Notes under the pieces: model-generated
Database searches by the model: none
What the model saw: only the letters and a program-made list of their open reading frames with translations
What the model was told of the DNA's origin: nothing
In this document: piece by piece, positions 1,096 to 64,000 of the stretch
Position numbering within the stretch: the first letter of the stretch is position 1
Layout: the number at the start of each line of letters is the position of its first letter
Translations under genes and position numbers: made by a program
Assembly: GCA_031283155.1 (NCBI GenBank)
Contig: JAITCI010000003.1
Span: 22,118 to 86,117 of the forward strand
Direction of reading: 5' to 3'
DNA from: Spirochaetota bacterium
Lineage (GTDB): Bacteria > Spirochaetota > JAGLSM01 > JAKPMW01
Length of the DNA: 64,000 bases

Positions 1096-1758
1096 CTATC
1101 TGGCAATATCATGATTGATAACTCCGGAAACGCTATTGGACAAGGATATAACCCGTTGGTATTGCAGCCGCCATTGAAGCGCGTTGGATATGGTTAAATA
1201 TCCCTGCGGGACGCCTTTTTGCAGAACTTCGTCAGCCAGTAAACCAAGCGTGATCTCGTCTCCGGGGATACATCTGTCTGCGAAGTAGGAAAGAATATCT
1301 TCTTTATTGCCGCCGTCTTTCAATATTTCCTGAATTCGTTTCGTCGTTGTAAAATCCGCCGTCCTTGACTTATCCACAAATGTACAATTAAGAAAACGAA
1401 GGTAGCTGCTCTCTCTTGTATCCTCTTTATCATAAACCAGAACGAGCAAATTGTAACCCAAACCGAATATTTTCTGATGCGAAGACTTATATGGACAAGA
1501 TGATTGAGGCTGTTTTATGGAGGTTACTTTTATATCTGTATTTATATCCTCAGACGGTAAATCAATACCCGATGCGCTGCTGCCGGGAGAAACATCAAAA
1601 CGCTCTCTCAAATAATTTTTCAATCTGTGTTCAACAAAAGTCCCCACTGCTTTTCCGTCTGTAACGCCGATAAGCTGCGGAAAATTTATTTTACTCTCAG
1701 TAATGCAGAATGCCTTTGCTGCGGCAAAAAGTTTTTTATGGGTAAGATTTTTTTTCAT
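1096..1758 (-). CDS. Probable type II restriction endonuclease partner (PD-(D/E)XK-like)
   Basis: 220 aa ORF directly upstream of the MTase on the same strand; GIDLPSEDINTDIKVTS resembles a D-x(n)-DxK nuclease core. Confidence 0.65.
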   Translation of the reverse strand: MKKNLTHKKLFAAAKAFCITESKINFPQLIGVTDGKAVGTFVEHRLKNYLRERFDVSPGSSASGIDLPSEDINTDIKVTSIKQPQSSCPYKSSHQKIFGLGYNLLVLVYDKEDTRESSYLRFLNCTFVDKSRTADFTTTKRIQEILKDGGNKEDILSYFADRCIPGDEITLGLLADEVLQKGVPQGYLTISNALQWRLQYQRVISLSNSVSGVINHDIAR

Positions 1759-2173: not shown

Positions 2174-2407
2174 GGCCACGAATCACACGAAAGGAAAGAT
2201 CGAATAAAAGATTAAAAAGGCAAAAACAATGATTGGGGTAAATACAAACCAAAACTACCATATCGGTGGAACTGCAACCTCCATCGGGATGTCAACATTT
2301 TCGTCTTTTTGGTCTTATTCGATCTTTTATTCACTTACACGATGTAAGCGTCCCGCGCGCAACAGGATGTTGCAACTGACGCGGGGCGTGAATTTCGTGG
2401 CTCAAAT
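2171..2407. repeat. MITE-like inverted-terminal-repeat element, copy A
   Basis: Left end TTTGGCCACGAATCACACGAA and right end AATTTCGTGGCTCAAA are imperfect inverted repeats; internal GATCGAATAAAAG/CTTATTCGATCTTTTATTC inverted repeat; CTTAC..GTAAG and GCAACAGGATGTTGC hairpins near the right end, matching copy B at 63432-63655. Confidence 0.65.
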
Positions 2408-62268: not shown

Positions 62269-62447
62269 GATTGGCGCGGGAAGGGCTTCCGCTACCCCCA
62301 CCAGTTTCAAAACCGTGCTGCCCCCAATTATAAAAGACCTGTACGCAGCCAAACAAGAAGCGCTGAAACCACGAAAACCGTGAAAGTAAAAAAAACATTA
62401 GCCACGAAATTCACGAATAAAAGATCGAATAGGAGATATATACGACG

Positions 62448-63305
62448 TTATCCCAAATCATCCAAAGTAAGGCCGGTTGCCGTGGCTATTTGCGCCGCAG
62501 ATAAGCCCATAGTTTTGAGCTTCCGGGCGGCTTCAAGTAATTGCTCCCGGCCTTCTTCCCGGCCCTCTTCGCGCCCCTCTTCACGCCACACGGCGATGGC
62601 TTCTTCCTGATTCCATTCGGTGATCCGCATATTGAGCACCTCCTGCTTGTGCTTCTCCATGAACTCTTTGAGTATACCATGTTTTAAGCAGTACCGTACA
62701 GCCGCTTGCATCGCTTTTTGTTTGTCCCCCAGTTGCCGTGTGAAATATCGTACCAGTGCAACAAATGTGCTGTACTCGCTTAAAGTTTTACTTCTGGATG
62801 CAAGCTCGGCGTTTCTTCCATCGTTAATGTTGAGGACGCGCACTATAAGCTCAAGGGTGGGTTCCTGTTCCTTTGCGAGTCCCAGTTCTTTTGTGTCCAT
62901 GAAGGAATCCGAGAGTTTTAAGATTTGTTCATCCGGGCAGGGCGCAAGTCCATTGTACAATACGAAAAATTCCGGTCTTGGAATTTTTACAAGTTTGCTC
63001 GAATAGAGCGCCCTTTTTTTGTTCATCTCTTCATATATTTTTGAGATATACATCAAAAACCGCAATCCCATATTCGGGTTAATTGTGCTCTGATGCTCCA
63101 AAAGCACAACCAGTCTCCCGCCTATCTCAAACGAAATATCGTTGATAGAATCCATGAAGAGCACATTTTGCAAGGTATTGATGTTTACCGGAGTATCCGG
63201 CGGGAGGGTGACGCCCTCCAGAGCGCAATACAATTCCCGTAAAATATCTGGTTCGCTGAACAGCAGCGAAAAAACGCTGTTTTTGTATGTATGATTCACG
63301 AGCAT
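62448..63305 (-). CDS. Rpn family recombination-promoting nuclease / putative transposase
   Basis: NHTYKNSVFSLLFSEPDILRELYCALEG, GRLVVLLEHQSTINPNMGLRFLMYISKIYEEM, C-terminal EEGREEGREEGREQLLEAARKLKTMGLSAAQIATATGL. Confidence 0.92.
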   Translation of the reverse strand: MLVNHTYKNSVFSLLFSEPDILRELYCALEGVTLPPDTPVNINTLQNVLFMDSINDISFEIGGRLVVLLEHQSTINPNMGLRFLMYISKIYEEMNKKRALYSSKLVKIPRPEFFVLYNGLAPCPDEQILKLSDSFMDTKELGLAKEQEPTLELIVRVLNINDGRNAELASRSKTLSEYSTFVALVRYFTRQLGDKQKAMQAAVRYCLKHGILKEFMEKHKQEVLNMRITEWNQEEAIAVWREEGREEGREEGREQLLEAARKLKTMGLSAAQIATATGLTLDDLG

Positions 63306-63400
63306 AAAATCCTCCTCTGTAGGGCGTTAAGCGCCCGTATAGAGCAAAGCCGTGAAGGGGCGGCGGGTGCGATTTATTTTCAATAAAAGGGCGGTTTGCT

Positions 63401-63692
63401 TGAGCCGCGAATACGACGAATAAAAAAGCAATTTGGCCACGAATCACACGAATAAAGGCTCGAAATTAAAGACTGAAAGGCTTGAAAAAAGTCTTGGGGT
63501 AAAAGCCAAAACCAAAAGCCGCGAGCGGTAGTGAACCCTTTTTTGATGTTTTTTGCCTTATTCGTGCTTACAAGGACGTAAGCACCCCGCGCAGACAGGA
63601 TGTCGGTCGCGCAGCGAGCGCGGGGAGCCTTTATTCGGTCTTTTTCGTGGCCAAATGTCTTGTAGTTTTGCTTTTTTCGCGCCTTTTCGCGG
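63401..63692. repeat. MITE-like inverted-repeat element, copy B (core 63432-63655)
   Basis: TTTGGCCACGAATCACACGAATAAAGGCT ... AGCCTTTATTCGGTCTTTTTCGTGGCCAAA, flanked by outer arms AGCCGCGAA...AAAAAAGCAA / TTGCTTTTTTCGCG...CGCGGCT; contains GTGCTTAC..GTAAGCAC and GACAGGATGTC hairpins. Confidence 0.8.
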
Positions 63693-63911
63693 CTGAATGT
63701 CTTTTTGGGCTTTTTTCGTGAATTTCGTAGATTTTATAGTTGCGAAATTTTGTTTGCAAAATACATACCCTCAGATAATATTATATCGCTATGATGGTTA
63801 AAACTATAGACCCGCGCAAGAACGCACATTGCCCCCTGGCATCCACAGGGTGTAAAGGTACTTCGCCTTGTACGCGCGCAAGAGCCAATACATACACCAA
63901 ATTTGCCCCAC

Positions 63912-63928
63912 GGGGGGGGGGGGGGGGG
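63912..63928 (+). repeat. Homopolymer G tract (17 nt)
   Basis: TTTGCCCCAC followed by 17 G then AATTCCCCC. Confidence 0.85.
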
Positions 63929-64000
63929 AATTCCCCCTTCCCAGTATAAATTTTGGTTTTTATGCTGTCGTTTGCCTTGATTTTTGTGGGGCGTTGGGTT

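Follow-up and report, generated by a model that had tools for sequence, protein, structure and literature searches.

The window, i.e. the whole stretch of 64,000 nucleotides that was analyzed, contains an Rpn family gene flanked by repeat arms near its right end and a gene-less copy of the same repeat near its left end. The features are as follows.

2174..2401, no strand assigned: copy A, a gene-less hairpin element (from sequence, motif scan, arm profile, and predicted fold), with the left arm motif at 2175–2195 and the right end GTGAATTTCGTGGC at about 2388–2401
62367..62442, plus strand: solo left arm, 6 bp off the 3′ end of the Rpn gene (from the profile and the motif at 62401–62421)
62448..63305, minus strand: Rpn family gene of 285 amino acids, belonging to the nine-copy NHTYKN subfamily (TIGR01784)
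62448..62630, minus strand: candidate intragenic RpnS antitoxin of 60 amino acids, with an internal ATG behind AGGAGGTGCTCAATATG, followed by REEG four-residue repeats
63401..63519, plus strand: left arm of copy B (arm profile, 84.4 bits, E 8e-24)
63625..63668, minus strand: right, inverted arm of copy B (arm profile, E 7.5e-4)

The repeat ends named by an earlier, sequence-only reading of the window are present, far above chance expectation. GCCACGAAATTCACGAATAAAAGATCGAATA is found at 62401–62431, the outer end of copy B is TTATTCGGTCTTTTTCGTGGCCAAA, and copy A (about 2174–2401) contains GATCGAATAAAAG and TTGGGGTAAA; the shared motif has three matches in the window versus none expected from shuffled sequence. 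The arm profile matches copy A at C28:24272–24370, corresponding to 2155–2253 of the window, and the solo left arm at C28:84484–84559 (43.8 bits, E 3.8e-11). The solo end had been equated with the ends of copy A: GATCGAATA is indeed common to both, but the solo end lacks the full GATCGAATAAAAG and lacks TTGGGGTAAA.

Both copies are predicted to fold into hairpins, with −88 kcal/mol over 246 bases for copy A and −121.8 kcal/mol over 334 bases, spanning the whole copy, for copy B. The outer end of the latter maps to about 63694, and copy B (63403–63694) has both of its arms and makes a complete inverted-repeat hairpin. The Rpn gene is, as had been proposed, flanked by repeat ends, namely the solo left arm on the plus strand and copy B, the near arm of which is oriented likewise; these ends are, however, not the two arms of one element. 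Since copy B alone makes up a full hairpin, Rpn is not enclosed by a single element here.

Further features were seen next to these copies. A second dispersed palindrome, AACAGGATGTTGC / GACAGGATGTC (window 63560–63640 and many other loci), occurs within hairpins and in intergenic regions and looks like another repeat family. A run of G at 63910–63930 lies near the end of both window and contig (C28 ends at 86117, which is window position 64000); comparable G runs lie near other contig ends, and an assembly effect is possible. Copy A has a Type II restriction endonuclease gene as its neighbor (1096–1758, minus strand; NF052465, 301 bits), and several other hairpin clusters adjoin genes that, judged by eye, are restriction–modification-like or PIN-like.

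Distribution of the CACGAAT hairpins

The repeat had been read as two copies 60 kb apart. A search of the 2.5-Mb genome with a profile built from one arm gives 80 arms in 49 clusters instead, and the motif alone has 41 matches at up to three mismatches, compared with none for the reversed control. The arm consensus consists of AGCCGCGAA, about 30 bp, and GCCACGAATCACACGAATAAAAGATCGAATAAAA, followed further inward by TTGGGGTAAA. Many of the copies are gene-less hairpins of about 170 to 320 bp, and the clusters are intergenic for the most part. No arms were found by the search in G001, the only congener available, and among 60 relatives searched, two other genomes show one weak match each. Gene content suggests Spirochaetota as the host phylum.

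The arms are long inverted repeats of a MITE-like family, which has multiplied in this genome. Like MITEs, they are short, multicopy, dispersed, and gene-less, have long inverted arms, and have at least one gene-bearing relative in the same genome, a unit on contig C33 described below. The earlier idea that members with and without a gene belong to a single repeat family is right. The CACGAAT copies differ from MITEs with respect to target-site duplications, which had been proposed as a check: none above the permutation null were found for the hairpins of this genome together with 44 copies from named genomes. Two further differences are the recurrence of the arm motif over many phyla and the nature of the candidate partner, a PD-(D/E)XK protein rather than a DDE transposase.

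In the genome collection, the pattern GCCACGAATNACACGAATNAA has at least 117 matching stretches (Bacteroidota, Chloroflexota, Acidobacteriota, and others), and many among the matches listed are complete hairpins of about 50 to 140 bp. The distribution across phyla is patchy; in Escherichia coli, no motif was found at the sensitivity used, and the literature gave no match for the arm sequence. Of 80 motif loci from many phyla, four contain a GxxExxY gene, which in three cases lies no more than 85 bp from the motif. At none of the 80 is an Rpn gene detectable with a profile of this genome's Rpn proteins. Spread by phages or plasmids was considered and rejected, as the motif is found in just one viral contig and one plasmid record. 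The latter, a Persicobacter plasmid, also carries GxxExxY, though the arm type of that gene is another one.

GxxExxY genes between inverted arms

The unit on C33 (5650–6702, 1053 bp) is composed of a GxxExxY gene (PF13366, PDDEXK_3) and two surrounding arms identical at 124 of 143 positions (87%). The encoded protein scores 137.6 bits against PF13366 (cut-off 22) and has the expected catalytic residues. It is the only PF13366 gene of this genome, and the unit is the sole intact gene-bearing family member found there; no target duplication is evident. We read the C33 unit as the gene-bearing member of the repeat family.

Inverted-repeat bracketing was scored in a phylum sample by comparing side with side, independent of any motif, using the best GxxExxY copy per genome from 30 genomes. 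At z > 4, 22 of 30 GxxExxY genes are bracketed, compared with 2 of 29 Rpn genes and 2 of 123 random windows (GxxExxY versus Rpn, Fisher 1.4e-7). Additional GxxExxY copies are bracketed in 14 of 29 cases (z > 4), and the arm unit varies among lineages and from copy to copy. Regular expressions for the tandem units were composed after hits had been seen and are descriptive only. In genome counts that are not phylogenetically independent, dispersed copies of the units go along with GxxExxY: at least five CAGGAT pairs are found in four of the five genomes with a CAGGAT-armed sampled GxxExxY and in 0 of 47 others (some CAGGAT-type hits being the GxxExxY arms themselves), and at least five CACNGAG pairs in 13 of 31 genomes with GxxExxY versus 0 of 21 genomes without it.

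GxxExxY units in related bacteria behave like tiny single-gene transposons of about 430 to 1050 bp. Genome G130 contains five such units (L311, L415, L416, L417, and L420) that are 90 to 97% identical over about 500 bp. The homology stops at the arm ends, and the flanks are mostly unrelated, apart from a short left-flank stretch common to L311 and L416. As expected of an insertion sequence or transposon, G130 contains several nearly identical copies that lie at separate sites and have constant ends. The unit measures 499 bp, most of which is filled by GxxExxY, with no other gene evident. At zero offset, the 9-mers flanking the units agree at nine of nine positions for L415, eight for L420, seven for L417, five for L311, and three for L416; the value for L311 rises to eight of nine after a 1-bp shift, and L416 shows no duplication. 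The signal drops at 10 bp. Over all 37 loci with usable arms, an exact 9-bp duplication is found at three (null 0.0), and at least eight of nine positions agree at six (null 0.29). A 9-bp duplication is also clear, and independent, at L313 of G104; those of L426 and L427 are weaker, lying in repeated or AT-rich sequence. Target duplications of 9 bp are demonstrated for a minority of GxxExxY units.

Regarding the protein itself, three residues of the PD-(D/E)XK signature (D, E, and K) and a downstream Y are invariant, and a Q is near-invariant. A sequence search yielded no solved relative, the best match being T7 endonuclease I (E 0.35). The AlphaFold model has a pLDDT of 90, and its closest folds are LHK-Exo, Cas4 SSO0001, and lambda exonuclease, with modest TM-scores of about 0.5 to 0.57 (query length). 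The literature found assigns no role to GxxExxY; a passage in one paper mentions it in passing beside a CRISPR-type reverse transcriptase.

Candidate origins of the repeats

The explanation toward which we lean is that the arms belong to a MITE-like family whose gene-bearing form encodes GxxExxY, with the gene-less hairpins as its relatives and Rpn standing apart. Herein, the gene-bearing form would encode the small PD-(D/E)XK nuclease GxxExxY between two arms that match those of the hairpins, as on C33. Copies A and B and the other hairpins without a gene would be deletion derivatives or nonautonomous relatives, dependent for their spread on functions supplied in trans, and Rpn would be a separate toxin–antitoxin gene whose local paralogs were duplicated along with adjoining arms. 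GxxExxY is the most likely gene-bearing partner of the repeats. It would presumably act on the arms or catalyze their movement, and the CACGAAT hairpins may move by the same route as the GxxExxY unit. In favor of this explanation, the dispersal of the arms, their identity around the C33 gene, the bracketing of GxxExxY genes, and, for some GxxExxY units, the boundaries and 9-bp duplications are demonstrated; the counts of dispersed pairs and the conserved nuclease residues speak for it as well. Against this explanation, the CACGAAT hairpins and the C33 unit lack target duplications, and exact ones occur at only three of the 37 GxxExxY loci. Likewise, arm type and dispersed type disagree in G021, G025, and G140, where CACNGAG hits are numerous although the arms of the sampled GxxExxY are of another type.

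A further step is put forward tentatively. GxxExxY might be the stand-alone mover of its own compact element, generating 9-bp target duplications, and it or its relatives might drive the gene-less hairpins with tandem units of 9 to 11 bp that occur in many phyla. If true, such a mover would represent a new class, with the PD-(D/E)XK fold used by an autonomous transposon for the first time. The link to GxxExxY supplies a concrete candidate origin for hairpin repeats that are widespread in bacteria and, as a class, apparently without a name, and it sets the common GxxExxY family in a functional context for the first time.

It is possible, if doubtful, that GxxExxY is instead a passenger and that the units are moved in trans by insertion-sequence transposases recognizing their outer ends; GxxExxY or IVP would then be cargo, e.g. 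a defense or addiction gene. The outer terminal sequences are lineage-specific (CTGACATCTACC in G130 and GGGTGCACCGTA in G104), and these ends could be recognized by an unrelated DDE transposase. Known DDE insertion sequences make 9-bp duplications, which counts in favor of a passenger role. So does the background that no autonomous PD-(D/E)XK transposase is known (PMC10327210). The same kind of bracketing is moreover seen at genes of the IVP family (PF05635), with different arm units: 10 of 22 are bracketed at z > 4, by arms of 7- to 9-bp tandem units (L372–L388). As IVP proteins are non-nucleases, the enclosed gene need not be the enzyme. On the other hand, GxxExxY occupies most of the G130 unit, and it recurs within many unrelated arm types, which is hard to explain for a random passenger.

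The IVP genes invite comparison with the 23S rRNA intervening sequences that contain IVP/S23 (PF05635), in which a small ORF likewise lies between complementary ends and for which mobility was proposed but is unproven (PMC4990558). The protein family and the arm units are different ones, and no duplications were found. IVP was rejected as the partner in the present case; this genome contains none, and the arm units at IVP genes differ and come without 9-bp duplications.

It appears improbable that the hairpins are not transposable elements but intergenic repeats, REP-like or terminator-like, with an RNA or chromosome function. Their strong predicted hairpins, mostly intergenic positions, and lack of target duplications would fit such repeats, as would the near absence of the motif from plasmids, E. 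coli, and viral contigs. Their absence from the congener and patchy occurrence across phyla argue against it, and at C33 the same arms enclose a gene.

The Rpn gene and its paralogs

The assignment of the ORF at 62448–63305 to Rpn was confirmed by TIGR01784 (57 bits, cut-off 52.1); its scores for Pfam PF04754 and PF12784 are under their cut-offs. In RpnL/RpnS genes, a small C-terminal protein with four-residue repeats has its own ribosome-binding site and start codon within the gene (PMC10327210). The gene in the window looks like such a predicted RpnL/RpnS toxin–antitoxin gene of the Rpn type (YhgA-like, PF04754/PF12784/TIGR01784), judging from its TIGR01784 match and from an internal start codon with its ribosome-binding site, followed by the four-residue repeats. 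The internal start is the same in those NHTYKN copies that have the region intact. Terminal repeats play no part in the description of RpnL/RpnS (PMC10327210), and the repeats are independent of most Rpn genes.

About 34 Rpn genes or fragments are present in this genome. An arm lies within 300 bp of five of the nine NHTYKN members, one of 15 in the LDYTLTDD group, and two of the remaining 10; the enrichment of the NHTYKN subfamily has a binomial p of 1.5e-5 under a rough null of 49 clusters and an assumed 2300 genes. Enrichment of Rpn genes at the repeats, which had been suggested as a check, is seen for this subfamily; most Rpn genes here have no arm. The copies have the gene and about 95 bp upstream in common, and some also share an adjoining arm, suggesting joint duplication of the two. 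Across the phylum, genomes with high Rpn copy numbers but without these repeats are common, and the congener has three Rpn genes and no repeats.

The sequence-only reading had taken Rpn as an enzyme that the element carries and that acts on it, a very improbable view, rejected on distribution and bracketing: although NHTYKN genes adjoin arms in five of nine cases, the copy on C82 has inverted arms on both sides, and several copies share the arm–gene junction, most of the 49 clusters are without Rpn, so that repeat ends are spread largely independently of it, only 2 of 29 Rpn genes tested in the phylum sample have bracketing repeats, none is detected by this genome's Rpn profile at the 80 motif loci from other phyla, the repeats are missing from Rpn-rich genomes, and rpn genes were judged not to be transposases, with no evidence of transposition by them (PMC10327210). 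A tempting but unsupported role is thereby removed, and Rpn is most likely a toxin–antitoxin bystander that was locally co-duplicated with arms. One NHTYKN copy (L066) contains a hairpin-like insertion at G000:C12:19340–19415, apparently in frame, with the ORF still open.
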